From Pseudomonadales bacterium (GTDB taxonomy: Bacteria > Pseudomonadota > Gammaproteobacteria > Pseudomonadales > Azotimanducaceae): 64,000 bases of DNA. The notes under the pieces were generated by a model. It saw only the letters and a list, made by a program, of their open reading frames with translations. It made no database searches and was not told where the DNA came from. A program made the position numbers and the translations under genes. The stretch spans positions 1 to 64,000 of the forward strand of contig JANQMF010000204.1 in the NCBI GenBank assembly GCA_028280225.1. Direction: 5' to 3'. Positions 11,208-60,596 of the stretch are shown in pieces. Every line of letters starts with the position of its first letter. Position 1 is the stretch's first letter.

Positions 11208-11210
11208 GGA

Positions 11211-12805: not shown

Positions 12806-12932
12806 AGGTTTTTCTGTTTGGAAAATGCGTATTGTCTTAAATGCGTGAATCCTTTTCAATGTCATCTGCTTTTGACCCATGGGATGAGTTGCCGTAAGAC
12901 CGACAGACTACATTGAGCCGTCCGGCTGCACG

Positions 12933-14228: not shown

Positions 14229-14277
14229 AGGATAAGAGCGAGTTAGGTCTGGTACGGCTACGAGAAGAATTGGTCAG

Positions 14278-15225
14278 GTGAATCTGGAGTTTAAATTTGG
14301 CCAGGCTACCCCCGGGGTGGTGATGGACAGGGAAAAAGTTTCTGTGGGTCTGCTGAACGGATGGGTGGCGGGCCGTGACATGGAGGCGTGGGTGCTGCCG
14401 GGTGAGGGGCAGTGTCTGGAGTACGAGAACCTGTCAGTCTGGCGGGGTGTTAACAATTTGTGTGGGGTCGGCTGCCTGGCGGTGACCGCCGACACCCTGC
14501 GTCAGAGCACCCGGAATCTGTACCGGCAGATTCTGCACCTTTGCCAATCTTATACCGTACATCGTTTCTGGAACTTTGTGCCGGGTATCAACCACAAGGT
14601 AGCACAGGCGGGAACCGGTGATATCGACCAATATATGCTGTTTTGCGCCGGGCGGGCGGAAGCTTACCAATCTCTGGCCGGACACGGGGGTGGAGATTTT
14701 TCCTCAAGCCTGCCCCCGGCATCAGCGGTGGGGACAACCGGAGACAAATTGTGGGTGGTTTTTATGGCCGGCCTGGAAACGTTGCAGGCCATTGAGAACC
14801 CCCTGCAGACCCCGGCGTATCGTTATCCCAAACAGTATGGGCCCCGACCGCCGAGTTTTGCCCGGGGGGGTGTGGTGGCTGAACGCAATACTTTAATTGT
14901 TTCCGGCACCGCGAGTATTCGTGACAGCGAATCCCTGTATCTGGGTGACGTGGTGGCCCAGACTCACCTGGCCATAGACAACTTGGAGGTGGTCAATCAG
15001 GCGGCCGGTATAAGCGGCAACCCGGCTGATACGGCAAAAATTCTGCGGGTTTATCTGTGCCGGGCCGAAGATTGGGACAAGGTTGCCGGTGTTGTCGCCC
15101 GGCGGCTCAGCCATTTGGAGGATCAACTCACGGTGGTACAGGCAGACATCTGCCGGCCGGAGTTGCTTGTGGAGATAGAAATGCAATCTCGCTACGATAC
15201 GAGGGCTGGTTTGGAAAAGGAATAA
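14278..15225 (+). CDS. FkbO/XanB2-type chorismatase (hydroxybenzoate synthase)
   Basis: A 315-residue protein of the chorismatase family (FkbO/Hyg5/XanB2), which has a RutC/YjgF-like C-terminal half. Recognisable family segments are RFWNFVPGIN (about residue 96), RAEAYQSL, and YRYPKQYGPRPPSFARG (about residues 181-197). XanB2 in Xanthomonas converts chorismate to 3- and 4-hydroxybenzoate, the precursors of xanthomonadin and ubiquinone. Its place in this cluster argues that the starter comes directly from chorismate. The GTG at 14278 is the likely start, 49 bases after the halogenase-like gene. Confidence 0.85.
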   Translation: MNLEFKFGQATPGVVMDREKVSVGLLNGWVAGRDMEAWVLPGEGQCLEYENLSVWRGVNNLCGVGCLAVTADTLRQSTRNLYRQILHLCQSYTVHRFWNFVPGINHKVAQAGTGDIDQYMLFCAGRAEAYQSLAGHGGGDFSSSLPPASAVGTTGDKLWVVFMAGLETLQAIENPLQTPAYRYPKQYGPRPPSFARGGVVAERNTLIVSGTASIRDSESLYLGDVVAQTHLAIDNLEVVNQAAGISGNPADTAKILRVYLCRAEDWDKVAGVVARRLSHLEDQLTVVQADICRPELLVEIEMQSRYDTRAGLEKE

Positions 15226-45420: not shown

Positions 45421-46893
45421 GTGAAAAAAGAGGACAAAAACCGGAACACCGGCGGATGGCGCTGGTCGGACTATCAGGTCCCGGGCTCCACCTTCGACGA
45501 ACTTATTACCGCCAATGGCCAGCCAAGAAAATATGCGCGCAAGCTGTTCAGCCGCCTGCGTAAATTTGGCATGGATGAGTTGGCCGCCAGACGTAGCGCT
45601 GCTGAACTTTCGATTCTGGAAATGGGTATCTCCTTTACCGTGTACTCCCAGGCTAAGAATATAGACCGTGCCTGGCCCTTTGACATTATTCCCCGGATCA
45701 TTTCCGCGGCTGAGTGGCAGCAGGTGAGCGCGGGTTTAGCCCAACGCATGCGGGCGCTTAACATGTTCATCAACGATACTTATAACAATCAGGCCATATT
45801 TGATGCGGGTGTGGTGCCCCGGCGTCTAATTACTACAAGCAGTGGCTTCCGCAAGGAGTGTATGGGTGTGCGTCCTCGTTTTGGCACATGGGCACACGTC
45901 TGCGGCACCGATTTGGTGCGTGCCGCAGATGGCGAATTCTATGTTCTGGAAGACAATCTGCGCATTCCTTCCGGGGTCTCCTATATGTTGGAAAACCGGC
46001 AGATCACCAAAAGAAATCTCCCGGAGCTGTTTCAGGATTACAGTATTCTGCCGGTGGATGATTACGCGGAGATGCTGTACAAGACCCTGGCTTCTGTTGC
46101 CCACACCCGTATCAGCCGTCCCTGTGTGGTGGTGCTCACTCCGGGTATTTATAACTCAGCCTACTTTGAGCATGCCTTCCTGGCACAAGGTATGGGCGCT
46201 GAACTTGTTGAGGGTAGTGACCTTTTTGTCAGTGATGAAAACGAGGTTTTTATGCGCACCGTTGACGGACCGCGTAAGGTGGATGTGGTCTATCGGCGGG
46301 TGGATGAGGATTTTCTTGATCCGGAAGTCTTCAGAAAAGATTCGGTATTGGGTGTTCCGGGGTTAATGCGGGCGTGGCGGAGCGGACAGGTAGTGATCGC
46401 CAACGCCCCCGGATCCGGTGTGGCGGACAACAAGGCGGTTTACGCCTATGTGCCGGAGATGATCCGCTTCTATTTGGCTGAAGAGCCGCTGATCAAGAAT
46501 GTGGAAACCTATCTGTGTACCGATCCGGCACAGCGGGACTATGTGTTGGAGAATCTGCCTTCCCTGGTGGTCAAACCAACGGATGAATCCGGTGGTTATG
46601 GAATTATGGTAGGCCCCCAGGCCAGTGCCGCCCAGCATGCGCGGTATAAAAAGCTTATTCGCAAATCCCCGCATAAGTACATTGCTCAACCCACGCTATC
46701 CTTGTCCACGGCACCCACCATGGTTGAGGGTGGCATAGGCCCCCGGCATCTGGACTTGCGGCCTTTCGTCTTACAGGGAAAAAGTAATTGGGTTTCGGCG
46801 GGGGGGCTGACCCGGGTGGCGCTGAAGGAGGGTTCGCTGGTGGTGAATTCCTCCCAGGGCGGCGGCAGCAAAGACACCTGGATTGTTGAATAA
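45421..46893 (+). CDS. Circularly permuted ATP-grasp protein (Anbu-associated)
   Basis: A 490-residue protein of the CP_ATPgrasp family (formerly DUF404/DUF407), which is associated with Anbu proteasome-like loci. Recognisable features are FINDTYNNQAIFDAGVVP, GTDLVRAADGEFYVLEDN, VVKPTDESGGYGIMVGP (ATP-grasp glycine-rich loop) and the ending VVNSSQGGGSKDTWIVE. It may form peptide bonds or modify a peptide tag. The GTG at 45421 follows a GAGGAAAGC site. The next gene starts within its stop codon (TAATG). Confidence 0.88.
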   Translation: MKKEDKNRNTGGWRWSDYQVPGSTFDELITANGQPRKYARKLFSRLRKFGMDELAARRSAAELSILEMGISFTVYSQAKNIDRAWPFDIIPRIISAAEWQQVSAGLAQRMRALNMFINDTYNNQAIFDAGVVPRRLITTSSGFRKECMGVRPRFGTWAHVCGTDLVRAADGEFYVLEDNLRIPSGVSYMLENRQITKRNLPELFQDYSILPVDDYAEMLYKTLASVAHTRISRPCVVVLTPGIYNSAYFEHAFLAQGMGAELVEGSDLFVSDENEVFMRTVDGPRKVDVVYRRVDEDFLDPEVFRKDSVLGVPGLMRAWRSGQVVIANAPGSGVADNKAVYAYVPEMIRFYLAEEPLIKNVETYLCTDPAQRDYVLENLPSLVVKPTDESGGYGIMVGPQASAAQHARYKKLIRKSPHKYIAQPTLSLSTAPTMVEGGIGPRHLDLRPFVLQGKSNWVSAGGLTRVALKEGSLVVNSSQGGGSKDTWIVE

Positions 46894-47825
46894 TGTTATC
46901 CCGGGTTGCAGAACGGCTTTATTGGACCGCACGTTATCTTGAGCGGGCGGAGGATACAGCCCGGCTGGTGAATGCCTATACCCACCTTATCCTGGACATT
47001 CCGGTTGGGGTGGTGCCGGGGTGGGAGGTGTTGATTGAAATTGTTGACGCCCAACAGGGATTTTCACAACGTTATAAAAATGTTAGCGAGCAGAATGTGG
47101 TGAAGTATCTGTTGGCGAATACCGATAACCCAAGCTCAATTGCCTTTGCCATTCACAGTGCCCGGGAAAATGTGCGGACCACCCGGGATGTGCTGCCGGC
47201 CCAGGCCTGGGAATTGGTGAACGAGTTGTCGTTATACGTTGAAGTACAGGCGCGCTCTGCGGTGGCCCGCCAATCGCGGTTTGAATTTTTAACCGAAGTG
47301 ATTGCCCGGGTACAGCAGATCAACGGCCTGATTTCTACCACAGTGCTGCGCGACCACACCCTGTGGTTTTTGCACCTGGGCCAACTGGTAGAACGCGCGG
47401 ATATGACCAGCCGTATCGTGGATGTTGGGGAAGCCGTTATTCTGGAGCGCGGCGCGGGCCGCCTGACCCAGATCCCGACCCTGTGGGCGAATTTGTTAAG
47501 GTCGTTGTCGGCAACCAGCGCCTTTCGGCGGAAGGTTGGCCCCACCCTGGAAGGGAATACCATCTTTAACTTTATTGTTTGCGACCAGCAGTTTCCCAGA
47601 TCTCTGTTGTATTGTTTGAATCAGATTGAGGAGGTTGTGGGGATGATGCGGGGCCCCAACGGTCTGCTGCGCGAAATTCGGACCCTGTCGAAAAAACTGA
47701 TGGGTTTTGACGCACAAGCGCATTCCCTGCCGGAGTTGCATCGGTTTATTGACGATGTGCAGGGTGATATTGCCGATCTGAACAATGCCATCAGCGAAAC
47801 CTGGTTTCATCGGGTTGCTGAGTGA
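46893..47825 (+). CDS. Alpha-E domain protein (DUF403)
   Basis: A 310-residue all-helical protein that starts with LSRVAERLYWTARYLERAEDTARLVNAY, the alpha-E signature, and has VLRDHTLWFLHLGQLVERADMTSRIVD. It is the regular partner of the ATP-grasp protein in Anbu loci, of unknown biochemical role. It is translationally coupled on both sides (TAATG upstream, GTGA overlap downstream). Confidence 0.88.
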   Translation: MLSRVAERLYWTARYLERAEDTARLVNAYTHLILDIPVGVVPGWEVLIEIVDAQQGFSQRYKNVSEQNVVKYLLANTDNPSSIAFAIHSARENVRTTRDVLPAQAWELVNELSLYVEVQARSAVARQSRFEFLTEVIARVQQINGLISTTVLRDHTLWFLHLGQLVERADMTSRIVDVGEAVILERGAGRLTQIPTLWANLLRSLSATSAFRRKVGPTLEGNTIFNFIVCDQQFPRSLLYCLNQIEEVVGMMRGPNGLLREIRTLSKKLMGFDAQAHSLPELHRFIDDVQGDIADLNNAISETWFHRVAE

Positions 47826-48862
47826 AGACATTTTACTGCGCCTGTGGGCAACAGCTGTTTTTTGATTCCCATCAGTGTGTTTACTGTCAATCCCGGGTGG
47901 GTTTTGCTGCTGCCGAGCTGGACATGGTGAGCCTTCACCCGGATGTCAAAACGCCGCAGGAGGAAGGCGCGCCGCTTGTGGATCCCGCGGGCCGCAGGTT
48001 CTATCTGTGCGATAACGAGTTGGCTTATGGCAACTGTAACTGGCTGCGGGATGAACATGAGGGCCCGGGGCTGTGTGTTGCATGTTGTCTGAACCGGACC
48101 ATTCCCAACTTGAGCTATCCGGAAAACCACCGTCGCTGGCATCGTCTGGAACAGGCCAAAAAACGCCTGATCTATACGCTGCTGACGCTGAAGCTACCCC
48201 TGATGGGTGATGTTGGCCCAAGTTTATGTTTTGACTTTGTGGAAGATGGCCGCAGTAATGTGGACTTTGCGGATGAAGTTCACAACACCGGGTATCTGGC
48301 CGGGGTGATCACGGTGAACCTGGCGGAAGCGGATGATGTGGCCATGGAATCTCAACGGGTTGCCGTCAACGAACAGTACCGCACCCTGCTGGGACACATG
48401 CGGCACGAGTCGGGGCATTTTTATCTGGACTATATCCGGCCGGGGCAGGAAGCTGCGTTCAGCCGCTGTTTTGGCGATCCGCAGCGGGACTATGGACAAG
48501 CGCTGCAACATTATTATGAGCACGGCCCCCCCGGGGATTGGCAGTCGGGTTATATCAGCGCATACGCCAGTGCCCACCCCATAGAGGATTGGGCGGAAAC
48601 CTGGGGCCACTACCTGCACATTACCGATGTCCTGGAAACGGCGGTGAGTCACGGGGTGCTGCCACCGTCTGTTAACGGGATGTCCATGGCGGAACGTATC
48701 GACATCTGGCGTGGGCTCAGTTTGACTCTGAATGAACTTAACCGCAGCATTGGCCACCGGGATGCCTATCCCTTTGTGCTGAACGATCAGGTTGCCAACA
48801 AGCTGGTATTTGTTGACAAAATGGCTAAGGGTCTTCGAACACCGGCCCCGGCAGAGAAGTAA
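47822..48862 (+). CDS. Zinc-ribbon metallopeptidase (Peptidase_Mx-like)
   Basis: A 346-residue protein with an N-terminal zinc-ribbon (FYCACGQQLFFDSHQCVYC) and a second Cys set (YLCDNE, CNWL, CVACCLNR). It then has a zinc metallopeptidase motif HESGH in MRHESGHFYLDY (about residues 192-196), followed by EDWAETWGHYLH. It resembles zinc-binding putative peptidases often found near Anbu or alpha-E genes. The GTG at 47822 overlaps the alpha-E stop. Its 3' end overlaps the convergent Anbu gene by 38 bases. Confidence 0.82.
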   Translation: MKTFYCACGQQLFFDSHQCVYCQSRVGFAAAELDMVSLHPDVKTPQEEGAPLVDPAGRRFYLCDNELAYGNCNWLRDEHEGPGLCVACCLNRTIPNLSYPENHRRWHRLEQAKKRLIYTLLTLKLPLMGDVGPSLCFDFVEDGRSNVDFADEVHNTGYLAGVITVNLAEADDVAMESQRVAVNEQYRTLLGHMRHESGHFYLDYIRPGQEAAFSRCFGDPQRDYGQALQHYYEHGPPGDWQSGYISAYASAHPIEDWAETWGHYLHITDVLETAVSHGVLPPSVNGMSMAERIDIWRGLSLTLNELNRSIGHRDAYPFVLNDQVANKLVFVDKMAKGLRTPAPAEK

Positions 48863-49562
48863 AAGCGGCCACAACCGCCTCGTTCCAGGCCTCCCGCAGT
48901 TCCATCAGATAAACGCTGTCCTGCTCGTAACGATAATAAACCTGGGTTTTGTTCAAGGCGTCCCGGCGCAAAAATATCAACTCAATCGGTGGCCCCACGG
49001 TAGCATTGCTGCGGATGGTTGAGTCCATGGATACCAGGGCACAGCGCATGGCGGTTTCCCAGGGTGTGCTGTGTTCGATAATACGGTCCAGTATCGGCTT
49101 ACCGTATTTGGTTTCGCCAATTTGCAGAAACGGATGCTGGTTCGAGGCGCGGATATGATTACCTTCCGGATAGACCAGGTACAGCTCGGGATCGTCGTGG
49201 CGAATCTGACCCCCAAGAATAAAGGTGGCTTCAGCATTAAAACCCGCCTCTTCACCGGTGGGGGCATATTTCTGCTGGGTTTGCAGACTCAGTTGGCCAA
49301 CGTAATCGGCAATGTCCGCCAGGTAGTTGAGCTTGTTGATGGTGACCTTGGCGTCTTCCCGCAGGTCTCGGTGAATGGTATCCACAACCGCCTGGGTGGT
49401 GGCTAAATTCCCGGCGCTTAACAGCACAAGGTGCCGCTCACCGGGAATGGAAAACTGGTGAGCCTTGCTGAAGGCGCTGACCTGATCAGCACCGGCATTG
49501 GTACGCGAGTCGGAACAGAAAACCAGGCCGTCATCAATTTTTATCCCCAGGCAATAGGTCAT
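48825..49562 (-). CDS. Anbu proteasome-like peptidase
   Basis: A 245-residue N-terminal-nucleophile hydrolase of the Anbu family (a proteasome beta-subunit relative). The sequence starts MTYCLGIKIDDGLVFCSDSRTNAG, where Thr2 would be the nucleophile after Met removal and SDSRTNAG is a conserved proteasome-like strand. The start is the ATG at 49562, which overlaps the upstream gene's stop as ATGA. It is one of the two core elements of this locus, with the ATP-grasp/alpha-E operon on the opposite strand. Confidence 0.88.
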   Translation of the reverse strand: MTYCLGIKIDDGLVFCSDSRTNAGADQVSAFSKAHQFSIPGERHLVLLSAGNLATTQAVVDTIHRDLREDAKVTINKLNYLADIADYVGQLSLQTQQKYAPTGEEAGFNAEATFILGGQIRHDDPELYLVYPEGNHIRASNQHPFLQIGETKYGKPILDRIIEHSTPWETAMRCALVSMDSTIRSNATVGPPIELIFLRRDALNKTQVYYRYEQDSVYLMELREAWNEAVVAAFTSLPGPVFEDP

Positions 49563-50131
49563 GGGGTTGCAAACTGCCGGTTGCACCTGGGGTCGATGAG
49601 ATTGTCGAACGCCGCCTGAATTTCACCGGCCATTGCCGGGCTGCCGGCTTGATCCCGGATGTGGCCGCGGATGACGCTATATTGTGCCTCGGCGGCAAGT
49701 TGAGGTTGTTCAACGGTTGCCCAGTGAACCAGGCCTGCCCAGAAACGATCGATAATATCCGCCCCAGCCAGCAGTTTGCCGTCCAGGGTTTTGATATGCA
49801 GCTCGCGCAGTTCACCCAGATATAGCCGCAGCGAATAGACATGAATCTCTTCGTCCCGGCGAATCCGTCCGATGATATCAGCGGCAAGCTCAGCCTCCTG
49901 TTCCAAACCTTTAAACAGGCCGGGAGTGCGGAAAATGGCCTGGGTATTGGCAAAACCAATTTCGGCCCGAAACTCAATGATCAGCAGGTTCATCAGCAGG
50001 CTTAGAAACCCTTCATACTCAGGGTCCAGTTCCGGGATAAAACGGCCCGCTTCAGGGCGGGCAAGATTCTGCGGTGGTTCTACGTCGGGTAAGGCATCAG
50101 GCCCAAAACCAGATCTCTGGCCACAAACCAC
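49559..50131 (-). pseudogene. Ferritin-like protein, 3' part of a frameshifted gene
   Basis: The 190-residue frame contains LNLLIIEFRAEIGFANTQ, then an E...DEEIHVYSLRLYLGELR pattern reminiscent of ferritin-like carboxylate ligands. There is no good start: the apparent GTG at 50131 is inside the preceding coding frame and reads unlike protein until ALPDVEPP. The frame before it (50080-50640) runs into a stop in exactly this place. The two parts probably belong to one gene of about 355 residues, broken by a one-base frame change near 50095-50110. It overlaps the Anbu start (ATGA). Confidence 0.6.
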
Positions 50132-50640
50132 ATCACATCATGGCCGCCGATACCCTGGTCCGGCTCACCGCCTTCGTCAATCCCGTGAGCCCACAACAGA
50201 CCTTTGTTCAGGTGTCCCAGGGCCATGCCGGAAATGTCTTCAACAATGATGGCTTGCAAGTCCGGGAATGCCATATCGGCAAGTAAACGGCCCCGGCCCT
50301 CTATTTTTCCGGTGATGGTGAGCCCATTGTAAAAAGGTTTGGTAATCCCCTTGCTGAGCAGAACCTGCTGTTGCGCCACGGTGGGCAGTTGCGGCCCGGT
50401 CAGCAGGGTTGCCGCTGCGTCAAACAGGTCACCACCGCGCTGACGCAAGGCTTGGGTCCAGGCGGACATCGCCTGGGTGCGGATCAGGGCCCGGGGCGGC
50501 AAATAATTACTCTGGGCGTCAAGGCCGCCGTGCAGACGCTGGCCCATGGCCATATGCGGTGCGGCAAAGGGGTGATGGGTGAGCAGTTCTTCGCGGCTGT
50601 AAACCAGCCTTGGCGCTGTTGGTGTGGTCAGCTCTGACAT
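50080..50640 (-). pseudogene. 5' part of the frameshifted ferritin-like gene
   Basis: The 186-residue frame starts MSELTTPTAPRLVYSREELLTHHPF with a good start codon at 50640 and contains NGLTITGKIEGRGRLLADMAF and GHDVMWFVARDLVLG. It then ends with LMPYPT, which does not look like a natural C-terminus. The continuing frame (49559-50131) picks up within this stretch. It is the first gene of the Anbu minus-strand group, 95 bases after the amidotransferase gene stop. A sequencing error cannot be excluded. Confidence 0.6.
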
Positions 50641-50735
50641 GGGTGATCCTGGATCTGATTGCGTATCCCCACGGTCTGTTTGGTCAATTTACCCGGTACA
50701 AATTCATGGGAGACGCAAGCTTACTGCATTTTACG

Positions 50736-52649
50736 TTATTCAGCAGCGGCCCATAGCTGCTCACCCAGGGTCTGCGGGCAGGCCCCTTCCCGGGTGAGTC
50801 TGAGCCACAATTCGGCACCCAGGAGGCGGAAGGTGAAATAGGGTTTTGTGGCCAGCAGCGACTCGATGGATGTGCGCTGAGCCCGGGGCCAGCGCAGCAG
50901 GTCCGCCACATGTCCGTTGACCACAAAGTTGGTGGTATTGCGCCACATCGTGGCGGGGGCGGTAAAACCGATTTTTGGCAGGTTGAGGACAGACTTGGGC
51001 AGCCACTTGGCTGCCGTCCTGCTGATCAGCAGTTTTCGCTGGCCTGCGGCATACTTGTGTTTGACCGGCAAATTAAACCCCAGACACATGAGGTTGTTTT
51101 CCAGAAAGGGAACCCGGGCTTCGACGCCGTAGCGCATGGTCATTTTGTCCACCGTATTCAGACATTCCCGCATATGGATATAGACATCTTCAAAGTTGTT
51201 GGCCAGAAAGGCCCGTTCCGCCACCGGCAAGTCAACAAGCTGACTGAAGAAGTCCCGCTGGCGCAGGGTGCGGTTGACGCCGGCAACCAGGGCCACATTA
51301 AAGGGTGAGGCCACATAGTCGTAAGGCTGATGATGCAGGGCAAAATTTTCGATTTCCCGGTGCAGGTTGACCGGCGCCAACCCGGGTACCCGATAACCGA
51401 TGCTCTGCATCAGCCTGTGGTTTGGAATCCATTTGTGCCGCCAGGCAAATTGCCGCCACTTTTTGTACGCCTCTTCGTGCCAGATATAACCGCCGAATAA
51501 CTCATCAGCGCCGTCTCCGGTCAACACCACTTTAAAACCGTCCGCCCGCATCTGTTTTGCAATCAGCATTTCCGCCACTTGCTGGGCAAAAAATAGCGGC
51601 TGGTCGTTAGCGGCAATGGCTTGGGGCAGGGCGCGCAGGAAGGTCTGCTGATTGATCTCCACCGGGCGCAGTTCCGCCCCGGCATGGTCGGTGATCAATT
51701 GTGCGCGGCGGCGTTCTTCACCTTCCATACCCACCATATCCGCCACGTAGGCAACCAGACGTTCTCCCTGGGGTTGGCACCTAGCCGCCATGGTGGTGAC
51801 CAGTCCCGAATCCAGGCCGCCGCTGCACAGGGTGGCCAGGGGTGCGTCGCTGATCATATGTGCCTGAACACTGTCCTGGAGCGCCTGCTCAAAAATTGCT
51901 GTGCTGCACCTGAGGCTGCGCTGACTGCTCCGGATACTGTCTACATTCAGATCACGATGCAGGTCGTAGTAGGTGGACCACCGACAGGTGCCGTTTTTCA
52001 GCCTTAAGATTCTGCCGGGCAAAAAGTGCTGGATGGTTTCGTAGGGTGTCTGGCGGTCGTCAAAACGCTCGTATAAAAACAGCGAAAGGGTATTTTGCAG
52101 ATCCACCCGGGCATCGATATGGGGGTGATTGACCAGTGCTTTCTGTTCCGAAGCAAATGCGATTGCATTGGCCCCCCTGGCGATAAACAGCGGTTTAATC
52201 CCCAAACGGTCGCGGGTGAGCCACAAACTGTTGTCCCGCAGATCCGCGTAGGCAAGGGCAAACATGCCGTTAAACTTGGGTATGGCCGCTTCTACCCCCC
52301 AATGGTGCAGGGCGTACAATACAACCTCGGTATCCGTATTACTGACAAATTGAATACCTTCAGTTTCCAAAGCCCGGCGAATCTCCTGGAAATTATAGAT
52401 CTCGCCGTTAAAGACCAGTACACCCTGCCCGTCCCGGGTCAGGAAAGGCTGATGGCCCCGGGTACTGATGTCCAGAATACTCAGACGGGTGTGACCCAGG
52501 CCGGTGTGACCGTTGTGCCACAGGCCCTGGTCATCGGGGCCGCGGGGCTGAATGTGGGTGAGCATACCCCCCACCACTTCCTCAAGGGGCGGGCTGGAAG
52601 CCTTTGATGGTGCCCCGGGCAGCATGACTGTTCCCACAATGCCGCACAC
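50736..52649 (-). CDS. asnB: Asparagine synthetase-type amidotransferase
   Basis: A 637-residue glutamine-hydrolysing amidotransferase. Cys2 of MCGIVGT is the glutaminase nucleophile, made available by the GTG start at 52649. The glutaminase domain (RGPDDQG, GEIYNFQEIRR) is followed by the synthetase PP-loop SGGLDSG and GDGADELFGGYIW. It may amidate a peptide rather than free aspartate: it directly follows ATP-grasp, GNAT and Mur-like ligase genes. It begins immediately (2 bases) after the Mur-like gene. Canonical AsnB is shorter (about 550 residues). Confidence 0.85.
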   Translation of the reverse strand: MCGIVGTVMLPGAPSKASSPPLEEVVGGMLTHIQPRGPDDQGLWHNGHTGLGHTRLSILDISTRGHQPFLTRDGQGVLVFNGEIYNFQEIRRALETEGIQFVSNTDTEVVLYALHHWGVEAAIPKFNGMFALAYADLRDNSLWLTRDRLGIKPLFIARGANAIAFASEQKALVNHPHIDARVDLQNTLSLFLYERFDDRQTPYETIQHFLPGRILRLKNGTCRWSTYYDLHRDLNVDSIRSSQRSLRCSTAIFEQALQDSVQAHMISDAPLATLCSGGLDSGLVTTMAARCQPQGERLVAYVADMVGMEGEERRRAQLITDHAGAELRPVEINQQTFLRALPQAIAANDQPLFFAQQVAEMLIAKQMRADGFKVVLTGDGADELFGGYIWHEEAYKKWRQFAWRHKWIPNHRLMQSIGYRVPGLAPVNLHREIENFALHHQPYDYVASPFNVALVAGVNRTLRQRDFFSQLVDLPVAERAFLANNFEDVYIHMRECLNTVDKMTMRYGVEARVPFLENNLMCLGFNLPVKHKYAAGQRKLLISRTAAKWLPKSVLNLPKIGFTAPATMWRNTTNFVVNGHVADLLRWPRAQRTSIESLLATKPYFTFRLLGAELWLRLTREGACPQTLGEQLWAAAE

Positions 52650-52651
52650 GC

Positions 52652-53998
52652 TTAGTGGTCTCCAACCGCTATTTTTTCGGGTTGAGTATCGGCCGGGTGT
52701 TGCAGGTGTACCCACACGTTGCTGTTGATCTTTGCGGTCACGTCATAGTTGGCGTGCAGGTGGGGACAAATGTCACAGTCGCTGCGGATGTTACAGCGGT
52801 TCCTCTTACAGCCAATCTCACCCAGCTGGCTGAATACCAGGCGGCTCAGATGTTGGGTGGTTTGCCCCTTGATAAAAACCACATCGTTGGGCTGGATCAT
52901 GGCAACCATAGCCCGGTGGGTGTCGACAAAGTTGTCTATGGCCATCACATCTGCCGGGTCTTTGCCGGCCTTGATGGCGGCTTTTTCGGCATGGTGGCTG
53001 TGTTCACCCACAAAAATAATTTTTTCCGCCCGGTCGGCCACCAGGTTGCCGATGGTAATCAGGCGTTTCCTGGAATTCATATGACCCAGGTCGGTCATAT
53101 CCCCCAGTACCAGAATACGCCTCTGGTGACGGACACTGTCCACAACCTGGAGCATGGCGTTGAGTACGTCAATGCTGCCGTTTTCGTCGCGCACCATAAC
53201 TGCGCCGTTGGGTAGGGAAACGGGCTGCATGCGGTCGCGAAAGGGTTTTACCCTGGCGATGGCGGCGACCGCCCCGGCCCTGGGGACGCCAAGAAATTCC
53301 GCAGTGGCCAGGGCTGCCAGGACAGAATTCCGCCACTGTGCACCCAATAGCTGAGTCTGTATGGGGAGGCTATCACCATCCGCATAGTGCACTTGCATGG
53401 ACATGGGTTCAGGCCAGTCCGCGTTGATGTTAGTGCCGCGTATATGGTTGTCCCCGCCCCCGCCGAAAAAGATGGCCGGCGCTTTGGCCAACTGAGCCAT
53501 CTGTTTTACGTGCTCGTCATCACCGTTGAGAATGGCTTGTCCCCGCCTGCGCATATGACGGACCAGTTGAGATTTTTCGTGGGCCAGTTGTTCGACGCTG
53601 TCATAGGTGCGTGTGTGGGTTCGCGCCACGGCAGTGAGAATGCTGACATCCGGTTTGACCAGTCTGGCCAGTTCTTCCAGGGTGCCGGGACCACTTGCGG
53701 CCACCTCGATCACGGCGTATTTATGCCAGGGCCGAATGCGCAGCAGCACCGCAGGCAAACTCCACAAATCGTTTTCGTTGTTGCGGGTTTTGTAGGTTGG
53801 CCCACGGTCTTTGAGAATTTCGTAAATAAGCTCTCTGCAGGTTGTTTTGCCCACGCTGCCGCTGACGGCAATGACCGTGGTGCGGAACATCAGTTGACGC
53901 CACAGGGAGGCCAGGACCTTACTGTGGCGCAGCTTGTTGCGCACAGTTTGGTAGGGGTGCTTAAGAGCGTTCAGGGTGGCATTTGCTGCTTTTTCCAT
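52652..53998 (-). CDS. Mur-ligase-like ATP-dependent ligase
   Basis: A 448-residue Mur-ligase-fold enzyme. The P-loop AVSGSVGKTTCRELIYE (about residues 44-60), the middle-domain segment RNNENDLWSLP and the C-terminal RILVLGDMTDLG are recognisable and similar to MurF/cyanophycin-synthetase-type domains. It ends with an atypical cysteine cluster (Cys397, 402, 408 and 411; CX4CX5CX2C) and a His-rich tail. It would ligate an amino acid to an acyl substrate using ATP. It lies in the putative peptide operon, 8 bases after the GNAT gene. Confidence 0.83.
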   Translation of the reverse strand: MEKAANATLNALKHPYQTVRNKLRHSKVLASLWRQLMFRTTVIAVSGSVGKTTCRELIYEILKDRGPTYKTRNNENDLWSLPAVLLRIRPWHKYAVIEVAASGPGTLEELARLVKPDVSILTAVARTHTRTYDSVEQLAHEKSQLVRHMRRRGQAILNGDDEHVKQMAQLAKAPAIFFGGGGDNHIRGTNINADWPEPMSMQVHYADGDSLPIQTQLLGAQWRNSVLAALATAEFLGVPRAGAVAAIARVKPFRDRMQPVSLPNGAVMVRDENGSIDVLNAMLQVVDSVRHQRRILVLGDMTDLGHMNSRKRLITIGNLVADRAEKIIFVGEHSHHAEKAAIKAGKDPADVMAIDNFVDTHRAMVAMIQPNDVVFIKGQTTQHLSRLVFSQLGEIGCKRNRCNIRSDCDICPHLHANYDVTAKINSNVWVHLQHPADTQPEKIAVGDH

Positions 53999-54006
53999 AA
54001 CTTACC

Positions 54007-54645
54007 TCACGACCCATTGACTGCATTGTTACGAACCAGACTGAAGCCGTAACGTTTTGCGATGCGGGAATTGATACAAAACTCTTTGCCGAAAAGCCGA
54101 AGAATCAGACAATAACCCAGCCGTACCGGACGGATGTCCGCATGCTTCAGCCGGGACGGGAAATTGTGGGCGTCAACATAGGAGACCATGCGCTGACCAG
54201 GCTGCTGTGGAAACAGGCGGCTGTTCAGGCGCCCCCGGGCGTGGCTTAAATACTTTCTGCGGTGCTCGGGGTGGGTCCAGCCTTTGTACCGGTACAACAG
54301 GGGTTGATTTATCTTGACGCCAATCTGGTCGGTAATGGCGGCAAAACTCTGGGTGACAAAGCCATATCCTACCAGTTGGTCCGCGTAAAAATTACCCACA
54401 CAGCGGTCCCCTCTAGCTTGTGCTTCGTTGAGGAATGCCGGGGAAAGCTGGTATTCGGCCGAGGCCCACGGCATCAGGTCTTCAGGCTCCAGCGCCCGGG
54501 TGGAATAACCGGGGGCTAGCGCGGGTTCTTCGATATGGGGGTTATTGTCACCCAGTTCAACCAACAGCAGTTTATTGCCGGTATTGGCAAGGCTGCGCAG
54601 GCCGAAGCTGTAGAGCCGCTGAAACCATGTTGCTTGGCTAGGCAT
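54007..54645 (-). CDS. GNAT-like acetyltransferase
   Basis: A 212-residue protein with the GNAT-type segments LVGYGFVTQSF and YRYKGWTHPEHRRKYLSHA, the latter with the acetyl-CoA-binding pattern of the fold. N-terminal 40 residues are not recognised. It is overlapped by 8 bases with the upstream GNAT gene, so the two may form an enzyme pair. Its acceptor is probably an amino acid or peptide of the same operon (inference). Confidence 0.65.
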   Translation of the reverse strand: MPSQATWFQRLYSFGLRSLANTGNKLLLVELGDNNPHIEEPALAPGYSTRALEPEDLMPWASAEYQLSPAFLNEAQARGDRCVGNFYADQLVGYGFVTQSFAAITDQIGVKINQPLLYRYKGWTHPEHRRKYLSHARGRLNSRLFPQQPGQRMVSYVDAHNFPSRLKHADIRPVRLGYCLILRLFGKEFCINSRIAKRYGFSLVRNNAVNGS

Positions 54646-55174
54646 AGGTCAATACCGGGTCAATGAACTTTTGCGGCGGCAACAGGCAGATCAGCCGCTC
54701 CGAGGGGTTGGTTGCGGGCTGGTCGGCAATCGGTTGCCACCCCGTTGACTTCATCATCTGCAACCAGGTGGTGCGGCTGGTTAACACCGTGGCTACCGGT
54801 ATGCGGTGGTTTTGCAGCGCGGTTTTGATGGCCCGGCGGGTCAGCTGGGCTGCGGTGCCTTGAATCCGCTGGTTTGGGTCTACCACGGTTCTGCATATCT
54901 CGGCAAATTGTTCCGGTTGGGCATCTACGGCTGAGCAGAAGGCAGCCGCTTTATCTGTTGCCAACGATCCCAGGCCGATGTGGCCAATCACCCGGTTTTG
55001 AAAAATTGCCACCCAGCGATAAAGATCCGCGGGCTGGGCCAGCCATTGGGCAAGGTCCAGGTTGCGGGCATAAGCCGGGGGCCAGCTTGTGTCCTGGGCC
55101 ATTTGCCCCTGCAAAATGGATTTCAGGCTGGGGTCGTCTGACTGCTGCCAGGTTCGGATGATCAGTTGGCTCAT
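54638..55174 (-). CDS. GNAT-family acetyltransferase
   Basis: A 178-residue GNAT protein. The beginning LIIRTWQQSDDPSLKSIL and WVAIFQNRVIGHIGLGSL are classical GNAT strands, and CRTVVDPNQRIQGTAAQLTRRAI is the acetyl-CoA-binding motif A (R-x-x-G-T/A). It is coupled to the ATP-grasp gene by ATGA and to the next GNAT gene by overlap. It probably N-acetylates an amino acid or peptide within the operon. Confidence 0.78.
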   Translation of the reverse strand: MSQLIIRTWQQSDDPSLKSILQGQMAQDTSWPPAYARNLDLAQWLAQPADLYRWVAIFQNRVIGHIGLGSLATDKAAAFCSAVDAQPEQFAEICRTVVDPNQRIQGTAAQLTRRAIKTALQNHRIPVATVLTSRTTWLQMMKSTGWQPIADQPATNPSERLICLLPPQKFIDPVLTYA

Positions 55175-56544
55175 ACCGTGGCCCCCGTCAGCCGCTGCTT
55201 AAATTCGTCTTCCAGGCTTTTGACCTGCTCCGGATCTGAACCCATGGAGATACAACTCACCAGGCCAAATGGCATGGCGCCGGTCCAGTAGGGGATCACA
55301 CCCGCTTCCTTGTTATGCTGGTAAAGCAGGTCTTCGATATGAGGCAGGGCTTGTGTAAAACTCGGGTACCGGGTGGGTACCGAGCGAAATGACTGCCAGT
55401 ATTTAAGTGGGGCCAGGCCGGACTGGTGGCGGATGTGGTTGGTGCGGAACCAGATGGCGGTGGGATAGGTAGAACCGTTGTAGCGGGCATTAACCTCTAC
55501 AAATTGCATGTGCGGCTGACCGTTGTCGTCTGTGGTTTCCACATAGTCCAGCCCGATAATTCCCCGCACGCCGCGCCTGGCCAGCCATTGGGCCATTTTC
55601 AGGCCGGAGCGGTCAATTTGGGCGTGGTGCCGGGTACGCGCCGGATAGCGATTACCCCCGTAGGTGGCATCATTCATCCGTTGATCGGTAGTCAGCAGGT
55701 GTTGCGGATGTCCGTGGGCATCAATCCAATACTGTACGTTTGGGGTATTGTTAAAGCGCAGATAGGACTCCACCAGGAAATTTCCCGGCGTTTGGGTTGT
55801 AAGCCATTCCCGCAGATTTTCTTTGTCGGTCTTATCGACGATAATGTTACCCTGTCCGCCGCTGGAAAAGCTGGCTCTGATAATGGCGCGCCCGGTTTGC
55901 GGTAAATATTTTTCGACGACCCGCCACAACTTATCACTTTCGGTGGTAGAGTTGGGCTTGACGGCAATCACTTCGCCGGGCATGGCGAGCTCCCTGATAT
56001 GCCGTATTTTATTCTTAACAAAACACTTTTTATTGGCCTGGGTGGTGGTTTGCGGGTCACCCGGGTGATGCAATACACAGTCAAAAGTCTGCTCCAGCAG
56101 GTGGGCCAGCTTAAGTGAGGCATCGGTGGCGCAAAATGTACTCAGGTGAAGGGGTTGGTGGCCGGCATTTATCCAGGGGCGCAGTTGTTCCAGCCAGGTG
56201 TGGTCATCCAGGAGCCGCTTAGTCAAGCCGTGGGCGCTGGATGGAATGTCCTTGTCGAAGCATTGATCGTTGGGGGCAACAATGGGGGCCAGCTCCGGTC
56301 CACAGCCTAAATTGCGGACAAAGGCCAGGTAGGCGTCTTCCACGGGTTTGGCCAGCATCACCATATCCTGGGGATTGGCCACCCATAAGGCACGTTCGGC
56401 AAACAGGTGCTGACTGTAGGTGAACGGACCCAGGTACCCCGGATTGTCCATGGTTGACGTATCGTGGACCAAAAGTTGGCGTACACCGGACTGCTGCAGA
56501 AAGGGCGGCAGAGCATGTTCCTTGTCGAGAGCGCTGGCTGGCAT
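55171..56544 (-). CDS. ATP-grasp ligase with pre-ATP-grasp N-terminal domain
   Basis: A 457-residue ATP-grasp family protein. Residues about 1-190 form the pre-ATP-grasp region (ALWVANPQDMVMLAKPV) and about 190-400 the ATP-grasp fold, with IIRASFSSGGQGNIIVD as the glycine-rich loop and FVEVNARYNGSTYP as the metal-binding strand. It is the first gene of its operon and probably joins amino acids or a peptide by an acyl-phosphate intermediate, as in peptide ligases such as PGM1-type enzymes. Start is the ATG at 56544; a GTG lies one codon upstream. Confidence 0.83.
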   Translation of the reverse strand: MPASALDKEHALPPFLQQSGVRQLLVHDTSTMDNPGYLGPFTYSQHLFAERALWVANPQDMVMLAKPVEDAYLAFVRNLGCGPELAPIVAPNDQCFDKDIPSSAHGLTKRLLDDHTWLEQLRPWINAGHQPLHLSTFCATDASLKLAHLLEQTFDCVLHHPGDPQTTTQANKKCFVKNKIRHIRELAMPGEVIAVKPNSTTESDKLWRVVEKYLPQTGRAIIRASFSSGGQGNIIVDKTDKENLREWLTTQTPGNFLVESYLRFNNTPNVQYWIDAHGHPQHLLTTDQRMNDATYGGNRYPARTRHHAQIDRSGLKMAQWLARRGVRGIIGLDYVETTDDNGQPHMQFVEVNARYNGSTYPTAIWFRTNHIRHQSGLAPLKYWQSFRSVPTRYPSFTQALPHIEDLLYQHNKEAGVIPYWTGAMPFGLVSCISMGSDPEQVKSLEDEFKQRLTGATV

Positions 56545-56849
56545 CACAACTTCCCATTCGATTGTTATTTGCGGCAGTAACTATCCTTGATTGCCGATGA
56601 GGGGCATTCTAAAGGACGCCCACAGGCTTGTTGTTATGCACTTGTTAGGAGTATCGGGCTCGGCGCACACACTTTTGTCTAGTAAATTGTCTTGGCATGG
56701 GTGGGGTGAGGGTAATCGGAGGTTTCGTAAAAAAACTTGCTATAAAATCGGTTGGCGACCGTTGATCACCCGCTTGGCGGTCGCCTTTGTACGGAATGTC
56801 CGACGGTCTGCCGTTCAGCAGGCCACCGGCGTCTGCTTATTGCACTCTG
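56545..56849. other. Intergenic region between ATP-grasp and OmpA-family genes
   Basis: This 305-base stretch has no credible gene. It should contain the promoter of the minus-strand ATP-grasp operon and the terminator of the OmpA-family gene. A hairpin lies at 56754-56785, and a TATAAA-like box precedes it near 56741 on the plus strand. Confidence 0.5.
56754..56785 (-). terminator. Hairpin downstream of the OmpA-family gene
   Basis: Perfect 8-bp arms GGCGACCG and CGGTCGCC enclose a 16-base loop. On the minus strand the stem is followed by AACCGATTTTATAG and later a run of T. It is placed to terminate the OmpA-family transcript. A plus-strand TATAAAA box immediately before it could alternatively drive a small RNA. 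Confidence 0.4.
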
Positions 56850-58352
56850 CTAGTTTACGGCCACGGGATTGGTTGCCCACCAGGAGGGGTAAATCACCAC
56901 GTCGATGCGCCGGTTTTTCCAACGGCCGTCCGCGGTTTCGTTGTTGGCAATAGGTTTTGTTTCGCCAAATCCAATGGACGACACCCGGCTGGAAGCGATG
57001 TCGGAATGGGTCATGAGGTAAGCGGCAACAGATTCAGCGCGCCGTACGGACAATTCCAGGTTGTCTGCGTCGGCACCGTAGGAGTCGGTATGACCTTCGA
57101 TGGTGATCGGGGTATCGGGAAATTCCTTAATGGCGGCCAGCAGCTTTTCCAAAACGGGCTCGTGGCGGGTTTCTACCTCGGCGCTGCCGCTGGTAAAGCC
57201 AAGGCCCACCAGGCGGATGATCAGGCGGCCTTCAGCGCGGACCACTTCCGCTTCGTTCTTCTGAAAGGAACGCTCTACCCAGGTGACAATCTGTTCCTGG
57301 GCCTCCTGTTCCGCAATCCGCTGGTCCAGCCGGGCTTTGGCCGCCACTCTGTCCTCAAGCTCAGCCTGGGCGGTCAGCAGTTCTTCTTGTAACAGGCGAA
57401 CACGTTGTTGGGCGGTACTCATCTGCTGGGTGAGCAGATTATTTTGTTCAACCCCCCGGGTTGCTGCCGCCAGCAGCTGGCTGACCGCATCGTCCGGGCC
57501 GTGGTCAAAGTACATGGGCACATCCATAAGATCACCCAGGGGTTGCAGGGTGGCCTGCCATTTCAGCAAGACCTCTTCTAACGAACTGCGCCGGTCGTCG
57601 ATGTCGTTGGCCAAGGTAGCCACATATTGAGAATACAAAGCCTGGTGCATGGCCTGATTGGCGAGGTTGCGGGGCTGATCCGTGTCATAACGGTTAGCGG
57701 CGAGTACCGTGCGCGCCTCGCTCAATAGATTGTTGGCCGCGGCAAAAGATTGGGGTGCCCAATCGTCAGCGTCCAGGTCTTTGGCTTTTTCAATTTCGTT
57801 TTCTATTTCGGTAAACAGGGCAATTTCGATGGCCGCAAGCTCAGCATCCCGAAACAAGACCTCCGCTTTGTCAGCATAACGGGCAACCCGGTTTTCCCGG
57901 CCTTTTTCGGCTCTGGAGGTGGCTTCGTAGAGTTGAGTTTCTGCGTTTAACCACAGCTTGGGGGCACGCTGGTGGGCTTTTACCTCCTGGGCATCCTTGC
58001 GTGCCTGGAAGGCGGCGGAGACGAAGTTCTCAACGGTGGGGGCCATTTCTGCTGCTTGTTGGAACAGCTCGGTGGCTTCGGACAATATGCCCCGCACCCG
58101 GTCAACATCCGCTCCGGAGGCAAAGGCTTTCTGAGCACGTTCAAATACCAGCCCCGCTTCTTCGTAGGTATTGGGGGTCAGGACACTGGCCCTGGCTTCG
58201 TTAGCAGCTTGTAATGCGGCATTGGCGTCGGCGAAAACCTGTTCGCGCAGGGCATCTCTTAAGCTGTTGCCTTGGGCAGCCAGGCCAAAGGTAGAGTAAA
58301 GGGTGAGGGTGACGAAAGATAATAGCCAAATAGGGCGGGGAATACGGCGCAC
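56850..58352 (-). CDS. OmpA-family protein with coiled-coil N-terminal region
   Basis: A 500-residue exported protein. A signal peptide (residues 1-26) precedes a long helical, Ala/Glu-rich region (about 30-365) and an OmpA-like peptidoglycan-binding domain with ITIEGHTDSYGADADNLELS and RVSSIGFGETKPIANNETADGRWKNRRID. The first part has repeated DUF4398-like helices. It probably links the outer membrane and peptidoglycan. The start codon is GTG at 58352. It stands alone. Confidence 0.87.
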   Translation of the reverse strand: MRRIPRPIWLLSFVTLTLYSTFGLAAQGNSLRDALREQVFADANAALQAANEARASVLTPNTYEEAGLVFERAQKAFASGADVDRVRGILSEATELFQQAAEMAPTVENFVSAAFQARKDAQEVKAHQRAPKLWLNAETQLYEATSRAEKGRENRVARYADKAEVLFRDAELAAIEIALFTEIENEIEKAKDLDADDWAPQSFAAANNLLSEARTVLAANRYDTDQPRNLANQAMHQALYSQYVATLANDIDDRRSSLEEVLLKWQATLQPLGDLMDVPMYFDHGPDDAVSQLLAAATRGVEQNNLLTQQMSTAQQRVRLLQEELLTAQAELEDRVAAKARLDQRIAEQEAQEQIVTWVERSFQKNEAEVVRAEGRLIIRLVGLGFTSGSAEVETRHEPVLEKLLAAIKEFPDTPITIEGHTDSYGADADNLELSVRRAESVAAYLMTHSDIASSRVSSIGFGETKPIANNETADGRWKNRRIDVVIYPSWWATNPVAVN

Positions 58353-58422
58353 GTTGAGTCCTTGGGTCGTGGGTTGGGCTGAGGGATGACGGAGGGCTAA
58401 TTATAACCGGCTTAGGTGGTGG

Positions 58423-59607
58423 CTAGGCAACCGGTTGTGGGCTGATTAATTGTGGCCAGCGCCAGAGCACCAGCATCATGGCGGCCAAACCCTCTGCGGC
58501 GGCAATGGCGCAAGCGTGTGCGGGCCCCAGCCAATCAGCCAGCAGACCAATGTGTAAAAACCCCAGAGGGGCGGTGCCGATACATACGGATAACACCCCC
58601 ATCATTTGTCGTTCGTAACCCTTTGGGGCGTTCATCAGCACCAGGGCGGATTGCATGGAGCCGAAGGCGGCGCTGACCAGGCCGACCAGGAGCAGACAGC
58701 CGGCCGACAGCCAGGGCAGGGTTGAAAAGGAAAAAGCCAGGGCAAACAGACAGTAACAGACAACACCCCCCAGATAGAGATACCGTGAGTGTTCCGAGCG
58801 CGCAAATGCCGACAGTAGTCCGGCGCCAAGCAGCGCGCCCAGACCTTCAGCGCTGGTGAGTACGCCGGTTAAGCTATCGCTTAGAGTTAAAACCTCTTTG
58901 GCCACCACGGGAACCATGGAGACAAAGGGGAAACCCCATAGATTAAAGACAATGGTGACCGCCAGAACACCCGGGAGCGTGGCACTTTGGCGCAGTACAC
59001 CTAAACCTTCGCGAAGGCTGTGGAAGATGGACTGTCCCGCTGGCCGTTCGGCGGATTGTTGTTGTTGGGGGAAACGTCCCTGGTGAACTGACAAGGCCAA
59101 CCATCCCGCTGCGTACAGACTCATGGAGAGGAAAAAGGCGCCCTGTAAACCAATTTGTTCGTAAAGCAGGCCGCCGAGCAGGGGCCCCAGTATCCGGGTG
59201 GCTGAACCTGCCAGAAGATCCAGGCTCATCGCCCTACTGACCCGGGTGGTTCCGGCAAAGTCACTCATCAAGGTCCGGCGCACCGGAAAGTCTGTTGACC
59301 AGACCAGGCCGGACATGAAAGCGGCGGCCCCAACGTGCCACACCTGGAGCACATCCAGATAGCTGAGTCCAAAAATGGTCAGGGCCTGGATAACCTGGAC
59401 CAGGGATGCCCAGCGCAGCAAACGCCAGCGGTTAAACCGTTGGGCTATCACCCCGCTGAAGAGTCCAAAAATGGACAGGGGCAGCAGCCGCAACATGAGC
59501 ATACTGGCAACCAGTAAGGGTGATGCGGTGGCGTCGAGGACGTAGATGGCAATTACCAGCATGTCCAGCCAGCGCCCGGTACTGTTAAGTCCGCCAACCC
59601 CCAGCAA
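58423..59607 (-). CDS. MFS transporter (EntS-like exporter)
   Basis: A 394-residue major facilitator transporter with about 12 membrane helices and FSGVIAQRFNRWRLL, the loop-2 MFS motif. The given start is TTG at 59607, but the preceding in-frame codons (GTA AAA ACA AAT ... PSVFGHPTFLTL) look coding, without an ATG or GTG. The N-terminus may therefore start farther upstream with an unusual codon. It is downstream of a LysR gene on the same strand and is a candidate target for it. Confidence 0.8.
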   Translation of the reverse strand: MLGVGGLNSTGRWLDMLVIAIYVLDATASPLLVASMLMLRLLPLSIFGLFSGVIAQRFNRWRLLRWASLVQVIQALTIFGLSYLDVLQVWHVGAAAFMSGLVWSTDFPVRRTLMSDFAGTTRVSRAMSLDLLAGSATRILGPLLGGLLYEQIGLQGAFFLSMSLYAAGWLALSVHQGRFPQQQQSAERPAGQSIFHSLREGLGVLRQSATLPGVLAVTIVFNLWGFPFVSMVPVVAKEVLTLSDSLTGVLTSAEGLGALLGAGLLSAFARSEHSRYLYLGGVVCYCLFALAFSFSTLPWLSAGCLLLVGLVSAAFGSMQSALVLMNAPKGYERQMMGVLSVCIGTAPLGFLHIGLLADWLGPAHACAIAAAEGLAAMMLVLWRWPQLISPQPVA

Positions 59608-59699
59608 GGTAAGAAAGGTTGGGTGGCCAAAAACACTGGGAGAATTTGTTTTTACGATGGCACCTGTTGATTGGACAAGGGATACCGTTTGGTCGAGGG

Positions 59700-60596
59700 T
59701 TAGTGGTCTGGTTGTGCAAGGGTGTTGCGAACCGCATCGATAAAGACCCTTACTTTCAGCGGCAGGTATTGCCGATTAGGATAAACAGCATAGATCCAGC
59801 GGCTGGATTTATCCAGGTATGTGTCCAACAAGGGGACCAACGCCCCGGAAGCGAGCGCGTCGGCGACCAGAAAGTTCGCCAGCCGGGCTACCCCCATATG
59901 TTCAAGGGCCGCCTGTTTAACCATAAGGCCAATTGCCGAGAATACGCTTGGCACCTCTACATCATAGGCAGTGCCTTGTTCGTGGAAGGTCCAGGAGGTG
60001 GAGTCTTGTGTGCGGGCGTAGATGGTCAGGCATTGATGGTTGCGCAGGTCTTGTGGGGTCTGGGGATGGCCGTGTTGACGCAGATACTGGGGTGAGGCGC
60101 AGATGACCCAGGGGTCCGGCATCAGCTTAGTGGCCACAAAATCGGCAAAACCCGGCGGCTCAAAGCGTATGGCCACATCGATTTCCTCCTGAATAAGGTC
60201 CACGGGCCCGTCACCCTGGACCAGGGTCACGGTGACTTCAGGATAAGCCTGCCTGAAGGTGGGCATCTGGGGCAAGAGTACTTGCATGGCAAATGCGTTT
60301 GAACAGGCCACCCGCAAGCGGCCCTGGGGGGTTACCGACAGGTTCTTTACTTCCGCTTCAGCGTCTTTGAGGGCGTCTACAATGTCCTGGCCGCGCTGAT
60401 ACAGGGTGCGGCCGGCTTCGGTGATGGCCAGGGAGCGGGTGGTGCGGTTGAACAGGCGCACCCCCAGTCTGTTTTCCATGCGGCTGATTCTTTTGCTGAC
60501 ACTTGACGGCGAGGCATTCAGTTGTTGGGCCGCGGCAGCAAAACTGCCGGCGTCAGCCACGCGGACGAGGATGTGCAGATCGCTGAGTGGATCCAT
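59700..60596 (-). CDS. LysR-type transcriptional regulator
   Basis: A 298-residue LTTR. The HTH lies in DAGSFAAAAQQLNASPSSVSKRISRMENRLGVRLFNRTTRS (residues about 15-54), and the effector domain follows with VDVAIRFEPPG-type residues. It resembles CrgA/AaeR-type regulators. It precedes the MFS gene, and a 23-bp palindrome lies 22-44 bases upstream of the ATG, a likely autoregulatory site. It is divergent from the DUF2970 gene. Confidence 0.92.
   Translation of the reverse strand: MDPLSDLHILVRVADAGSFAAAAQQLNASPSSVSKRISRMENRLGVRLFNRTTRSLAITEAGRTLYQRGQDIVDALKDAEAEVKNLSVTPQGRLRVACSNAFAMQVLLPQMPTFRQAYPEVTVTLVQGDGPVDLIQEEIDVAIRFEPPGFADFVATKLMPDPWVICASPQYLRQHGHPQTPQDLRNHQCLTIYARTQDSTSWTFHEQGTAYDVEVPSVFSAIGLMVKQAALEHMGVARLANFLVADALASGALVPLLDTYLDKSSRWIYAVYPNRQYLPLKVRVFIDAVRNTLAQPDH

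Follow-up and report, generated by a model that had tools for sequence, protein, structure and literature searches.

Several described systems combine enzymes of the kinds considered here. The N-acetylglutaminylglutamine amide (NAGGN) operon, with asnO, ngg and an M42 peptidase gene, brings together AsnB-type amidotransferase, ATP-grasp and GNAT functions, as in Shinella (L142) and Azospirillum (L148). Ngg (TIGR03103) is presumably a fusion of GNAT and ATP-grasp domains. According to the consulted part of PMC2922099, predicted peptide-synthesis neighbourhoods of methionyl-tRNA-synthetase paralogues in some cases combine a GNAT, an ATP-grasp protein and an asparagine-synthetase-related PP-loop ATPase, and a Mur ligase has been noted next to some cyclodipeptide synthases. 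In MurT/GatD, a Mur ligase with central and C-terminal domains and a cysteine-rich element is paired with a glutaminase (consulted part of PMC6085368). Here we describe a five-gene operon that shares these functions. It lies on contig JANQMF010000204.1 of a Pseudomonadales bacterium (assembly GCA_028280225.1), in a stretch of 64,000 nucleotides that we call the window. We tentatively read the operon as a route to a small acylated, amidated peptide-like metabolite, independent of ribosomes and nonribosomal peptide synthetases (NRPSs); we infer its substrates, order of steps, product and role, and the reading could well prove wrong.

Five open frames on the minus strand, spanning positions 50736-56547, make up the operon: ATP-grasp ligase, GNAT1, GNAT2, Mur ligase and AsnB, in that order. 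The ATP-grasp and GNAT1 genes overlap by 4 bases and the two GNAT genes by 8, and gaps of 8 and 2 bases separate GNAT2 from Mur and Mur from AsnB. A preliminary description of this DNA had noted the same tight packing (under 10 bases) and the same five gene types. Family profiles support four of these assignments, and a modest AlphaFold model is suggestive for the fifth, GNAT2; the profiles are also consistent with the ligase, acyltransferase and amidotransferase chemistry proposed there. The grouping is more than chance, for some of these genes also occur together in other genomes.

The first gene (55171..56547) encodes an ATP-grasp ligase of 458 amino acids with a PreATP-grasp domain, starting with GTG at 56547 or alternatively with ATG at 56544. 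The profile search gave PreAtp-grasp (PF18604) at 41.4 bits against a cut-off of 27.5, and ATP-grasp_3 slightly under its cut-off (21.8 against 23.2). The closest solved relatives by profile are BesA (8yi6, E 4e-9) and PGM1 (3wvq, E 1.8e-4). An EVNAR-x-NGS segment is retained in the sole full-length relative. The protein scores 26.1 bits against the BesA equivalog NF042917, far under the cut-off of 750. Its AlphaFold model, with a predicted local distance difference test score (pLDDT) of 39.8, was too poor for use in fold comparison.

GNAT1 (54638..55174, minus strand, 178 amino acids) is a GNAT-family acyltransferase that matches Acetyltransf_1 (PF00583) with 31.1 bits against a cut-off of 20.7, and the loop R-x-x-G-x-A/S is present in all three aligned sequences, including that of the window. 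GNAT2 (54007..54645, minus strand, 212 amino acids) is predicted to adopt an atypical GNAT fold and belongs to a multi-copy family that Pfam does not name; searches of Pfam and NCBIfam (E 0.01) and of PHROG (E 1) gave no match. The structure matches of its AlphaFold model (pLDDT 62.7) are largely GNATs. Seven PDB matches reached E<=0.001, namely four GNAT/VipF chains, two chains of one function-unassigned protein and one structural-genomics entry. The remainder of the best 50 of 766 rows are mostly named acetyltransferases, and TM-scores among these 50 stay below 0.6 for a model of only modest pLDDT. A profile of 16 GNAT2 relatives found one weak GNAT match in the PDB (E 0.74). The usual GNAT loop is R-x-x-G-x-G/A, which the GNAT2 sequence lacks, and this weakens the earlier suggestion that both GNATs acetylate an N-terminus. 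GNAT2 relatives occur in 12 of 200 family genomes. One genome of the same genus (G187) alone has 15 matches (15 of 22 candidates scored; L030, L031, L032, L043, L044 and others), and, L030 apart, none of the loci fetched places a GNAT2 copy with a match to the window ATP-grasp, Mur or AsnB protein.

The fourth gene (52652..53998, minus strand, 448 amino acids) encodes a MurF-like ligase. It matches Mur_ligase_M (114 bits) and Mur_ligase_C (48 bits), and its closest solved relatives by sequence profile are MurF-containing chains. The middle and C-terminal domains are common to MurF and this protein. The N-terminal UDP-binding domain is missing, profile positions 37-389 aligning to MurF 101-451, and the protein has a C-terminal tail with four cysteines (Cys4). 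The score against the MurF family TIGR01143 is 208.2 bits, under the cut-off of 288.6. With this score and the missing domain we reject an identity as MurF, and with it the cell-wall placement that the preliminary description had considered. Another Mur-type frame, of 481 amino acids, lies elsewhere in the window genome (C208).

The P-loop of the Mur ligase (SGSVGKTT, 53840..53863, minus strand) has G47, S48, G50, K51 and T53 invariant in six aligned sequences. The Cys4 tail, CX4CX5CX2C at residues 397-411 (52766..52810, minus strand), was found by pattern search. Among distinct open reading frames (ORFs) of at least 200 amino acids in the loci fetched, 12 of 670 carry the pattern, and all 12 belong to this Mur ligase family, including a copy on a Gemmobacter plasmid; a raw count of 32/789 included repeated copies of the same genes. 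As a control, 26 loci of weaker Mur matches (L074-L099) were searched; 9 had no P-loop-bearing Mur-type frame, and none of the frames in the other 17 has the tail (0/13 under a cruder filter). The tail is reminiscent of the zinc-ribbon-like insertion in MurT (PMC6085368) but sits elsewhere, and by this analogy it may bind zinc.

Further members of the Cys4 family were seen in other settings. The Gemmobacter aquarius plasmid copy (L141:7989-9314) lies between pyruvyltransferase and glycosyltransferase genes. Genome G792 has a tandem pair separated by 2 bases (L101:8025-10699), and G769 has two Mur pieces, with a 637-amino-acid frame (L102:9153-11066) that joins a peptidyl-tRNA hydrolase-like part (read by eye) to a Cys4 Mur ligase and is either a fusion or a frame artefact; both genomes lack the AsnB clade described below. 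Distant, alphaproteobacterium-like genes in G844, G847, G860 and G904 are 27-28% identical, and the stretches fetched contain nothing that matches AsnB, ATP-grasp or a GNAT. We found no description of this MurF-derived family in the literature searched. The same holds for the five-gene set, for which an earlier mention is possible, the likeliest precedent being Iyer 2009.

The last gene (50736..52649, minus strand) encodes an AsnB-type glutamine-dependent amidotransferase of 637 amino acids, with Cys2, CSGGLDS and TGDGADE motifs; its GTG start puts the cysteine at position 2. It matches Asn_synthase with 198 bits plus GATase_6/7, and scores 389.7 bits against TIGR01536, above the cut-off. Against the NAGGN family TIGR03104 it reaches 307 bits, under the cut-off of 570. 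The closest solved relative by profile is the hydroxyamidotransferase 7ylz (1.5e-66), which we take to be TsnB9, ahead of E. coli AsnB (6.3e-50).

In the tree, the four Mur-linked AsnBs group in one clade (100/100), separate from a NAGGN AsnO clade of six rows (100/100) that includes copies from G565 and G792. Because the tree warns of long branches (E. coli AsnB, L117 and Deinococcus), how the clades are placed relative to one another is uncertain; the two clades themselves are starred. Members of the Mur-linked clade, which was sought in seven genomes plus plasmids, are 46-63% identical to each other, against no more than 34.5% for the remaining AsnBs in the comparison; the best AsnB rows listed for plasmids reach at most 32%. 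All four have a cysteine right after the initial methionine and an SGG-x-DS loop (CSGGLDS or CSGGMDS), and GDGADE or GHGADE where NAGGN AsnO has GQGADE. The E. coli segments TTIRAS and GEGSDE, whose residues are presumably important in that enzyme, are replaced in all four by QPLFFAQ-like and GDGADE/GHGADE sequences, a difference of limited diagnostic value as other AsnB homologues compared also deviate from E. coli. A Mur gene adjoins AsnB in every clade member found (window, G049, G565 and G485, from two families).

Two modules recur separately, ATP-grasp-GNAT1-GNAT2 and Mur-AsnB. G485, of the same genus as the window genome, conserves the flanks of the operon on both sides, with a contig break in the middle. 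One of its contigs (C81, C16) carries the transporter and OmpA genes found upstream of the operon and 343 codons of ATP-grasp. The other carries the final part of Mur, matched over 16 residues and with the last three of the four tail cysteines, together with AsnB and the genes for protein X and Anbu that also follow AsnB in the window. The Mur search found no whole copy in G485, which the contig break would explain. In G187, ATP-grasp, GNAT1 and GNAT2 relatives (31, 43 and 57% identity) are followed by a CapA gene (PF09587), and no Mur or AsnB of the operon's kind was found in that genome. G049, of the same family, has a Mur-AsnB pair without the other operon genes, a second Mur alone, and a GNAT1 relative adjoining a GNAT2 relative at a separate locus. 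In G565, of the same class, AsnB and Mur are 112 bases apart and adjoin a GNAT, which resembles GNAT2 weakly by profile (probability 69), and an Acetyltransf_6-like gene (weak, E 0.11). G565 also carries a NAGGN-clade AsnB, with no Ngg match in the short stretch around it. Among the genomes compared, all five genes were seen together in the window alone. The occurrence of the set in other genomes, raised in the preliminary description, is therefore borne out for the modules, with both ends present in G485, but not for the complete set.

The operon is rare and patchy. The window genome is counted in every set searched, the draws overlap, and the order, class and phylum sets, like the 200 family genomes searched for GNAT2, are samples of larger groups. 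The ATP-grasp profile matched 4 of 206 family genomes, three strongly and one weakly, and 2 of 229 phylum genomes, one of these weakly; a single-sequence search gave 2 of 293 order genomes, again one weak. The matches in G333, G130 and G804 were rejected as true relatives, being weak and covering about 95-103 positions near the C-terminal end. A wider collection was scanned with two short peptide patterns, by which relatives can be missed, and gave one record, carrying the G187 genes. Viral contigs had no ATP-grasp match, and plasmids gave three records with 22-29% identity. For Mur, the profile at E<=1e-65 matched 2/206 family, 2/293 order and 5/229 phylum genomes (four of these five distant, of one genus), and these counts are lower bounds, with G485 under the threshold since its gene is cut. 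In the class, 277 of 321 genomes match at E<=1e-30; four exceed 350 bits and the next best reaches 181 bits. A distribution so sparse and patchy points to a specialised metabolite or to decoration of the envelope, and it fits specialised metabolism better than the compatible-solute role offered in the preliminary description, a role that is no more than possible.

Between the window and G485, ATP-grasp is about 45-46% identical and AsnB about 62-64%, compared with 67% for the transporter, 75% for OmpA, 79% for Alpha-E and 83% for Anbu. By these lower identities ATP-grasp is clearly evolving faster than the neighbouring genes in the comparison, whose slowest pace AsnB does not match: it diverges roughly as fast as the transporter gene. 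Nonsynonymous and synonymous divergence (dN and dS) between the two genomes are 0.54 and 1.56 for the ATP-grasp part and 0.30 and 1.54 for AsnB. Each of the six comparisons that gave a dS estimate has dN below dS, the latter being high (1.4-1.9) and hence rough, and the operon genes look maintained.

The chemistry of the families suggests how the enzymes could work together. In brief, the ATP-grasp ligase would work like BesA and PGM1, converting a carboxylate to an acyl phosphate and coupling it to an amine. GNAT1 would cap free amines, and GNAT2 perhaps as well, with another acyl donor. The Mur ligase would activate a further carboxylate and add a second amine or amino acid, and AsnB, releasing ammonia from glutamine via Cys2, would amidate the remaining carboxylate. 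The ends of the product would be masked. Since the two halves of the operon occur apart, the ATP-grasp/GNAT half and the Mur/AsnB half may use different substrates.

Several observations weigh against a single metabolite route. No genome besides that of the window unites the five genes: the first module stands in G187 without a Mur or AsnB of this kind, and G049 and G565 have Mur-AsnB without an adjoining ATP-grasp gene. Because the modules occur separately, one common product is not proven. The substrates are not readable from sequence, and the surface-polysaccharide-like genes about 9 kb from Mur-AsnB in G565 (read by eye) would fit a glycan target equally well. Finally, GNAT1 and GNAT2 compared with G187 yielded no dS estimate.

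A region of 302 bases (56548..56849, minus strand) separates the operon from an OmpA-family gene upstream (56850-58352), which is preceded by a gene for a major facilitator superfamily (MFS) transporter (58423-59607), both on the same strand as the operon. There are no sigma-70-type promoter matches in 48700-58500, where shuffled sequence averages 4.9. Protein X (49559..50640, minus strand) begins 95 bases after AsnB (50 in G485); it is read in two overlapping frames in the window and in a single frame of 347 amino acids in G485 (L121:4733-5776), and has no Pfam match and no match among plasmids. Downstream of X is an Anbu-type proteasome-like protein (48825..49586, minus strand; Proteasome PF00227, 29.7 bits), some relatives of which are annotated as proteasome-type protease. 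By profile search, the genes that face X and Anbu from the plus strand are CP_ATPgrasp_2, Alpha-E and Peptidase_Mx, giving a convergent layout (45421-49586) that is arranged alike in L121. The consulted part of PMC6376114 describes a four-gene Anbu operon with one gene termed transglutaminase-like, and the three companions of Anbu in the window closely resemble the companions described there. Farther away, at 3144-15225, genes read by eye resemble an aryl-polyene or xanthomonadin-type cluster, with ketosynthases, two FAD-dependent halogenase-like proteins, an MMPL-type exporter, acyltransferases, an AMP-dependent ligase and a chorismatase-like gene.

The strongest competing explanation, though we consider it rather unlikely, is envelope decoration, in which the ligases and the amidotransferase would modify a surface glycan, or the uronic acids in it, with acylated amino-acid amides and no free peptide would be made. 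The GNAT and Acetyltransf_6-like neighbours of Mur-AsnB in G565, the sugar-transfer and flippase-like genes some 9 kb from that pair, the glycosyltransferases around the Gemmobacter ligase and the CapA gene that ends the G187 module all point this way. However, the window genes of 45421-60596 include none recognised as a glycosyltransferase or sugar-nucleotide gene (by profiles, other ORFs by eye), and the G049 pair adjoins a P450-like gene and others unlike glycan genes (by eye). Alternatively, as X and Anbu follow AsnB on the same strand, the operon could make a peptide or tag handled by Anbu. This seems distinctly improbable to us: the order AsnB-X-Anbu is kept in G485, and proposals in the consulted part of PMC6376114 connect Anbu operons with amide-bond tags, but Anbu was matched on 26 plasmid records with no operon-type genes annotated in the two regions opened, the first module of G187 lies among other genes, and the adjacency could be mere neighbourhood. 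A broader version, in which the Cys4-tailed family and its dedicated AsnB clade build and amidate short peptides behind an interchangeable ATP-grasp/GNAT front end, with the product passed to the adjacent Anbu, is a speculation to which we give very little credence; if true, it would supply a first candidate substrate for the orphan proteasome-like Anbu.

Two further explanations start from AsnB. It is most improbable that this is simply the asparagine synthetase of the cell, with the other four genes on an unrelated task. The TIGR01536 score agrees with that idea, as does the window genome (assembly 96.7% complete), in which no second whole AsnB-type gene was found, only one partial glutaminase-domain match; the constant Mur partner, the compact clade and the replaced E. 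coli segments argue otherwise. We think it very unlikely that the operon is a NAGGN-type osmolyte pathway with swapped enzymes, making a different dipeptide amide for the same role. The logic of ligation, acetylation and amidation is alike, as the preliminary description rightly saw in noting a different ligase set, and the AsnB of the window shares about 30% identity with NAGGN AsnO. The window differs in its separate ATP-grasp and GNATs and its extra Mur ligase, and none of the five proteins is clearly related to Ngg. Profile search of the window proteins gave no TIGR03103 match for ATP-grasp or the GNATs, blastp of ten window proteins against two Ngg proteins gave a best E of 0.018 over 38 residues, and hhalign of ATP-grasp against Ngg a probability of 5.7. 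Neither an Ngg nor an M42-family peptidase gene was seen among the genes of 45421-60596 around the operon (by profiles, other ORFs by eye; the rest of the genome was not searched). G565, moreover, has a NAGGN-clade AsnB in addition to its Mur-linked one, and the set is rare and patchy. With no Ngg relative and an AsnB under the TIGR03104 cut-off in a separate clade, we reject membership in the NAGGN family.

We return to the capped, amidated metabolite and to the systems it most resembles. The window ATP-grasp shares the PreATP-grasp domain with the amino-acid ligases BesA and PGM1, but falls far short of the BesA equivalog level, and no neighbour gene of the BesA or PGM1 pathways was recognised. 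Likewise, 7ylz is the best solved relative of AsnB, but its hydroxamate-forming companion genes were not recognised in the window. The neighbourhoods of PMC2922099, in the part consulted, centre on an aminoacyl-tRNA-synthetase-like protein, a cupin and a lysine monooxygenase, none of which was recognised at the operon. MurT/GatD is alike in uniting a two-domain Mur ligase bearing a cysteine-rich element with a glutaminase partner, although that element lies in the middle domain of MurT (consulted part of PMC6085368) and the Cys4 tail is C-terminal; the window partner is an AsnB with its own synthetase domain instead of GatD, and the window Mur family also occurs without AsnB. If our reading is right, the Cys4-tailed Mur ligases and the AsnB clade become directly testable for substrates. 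The occurrence of the modules apart in different genomes suggests a general, recombinable route to capped, amidated metabolites. Among known systems, the operon files under the NRPS-independent amide-ligase pathways as a different enzyme set, and would add one more to the few that build peptides without ribosomes or NRPSs.

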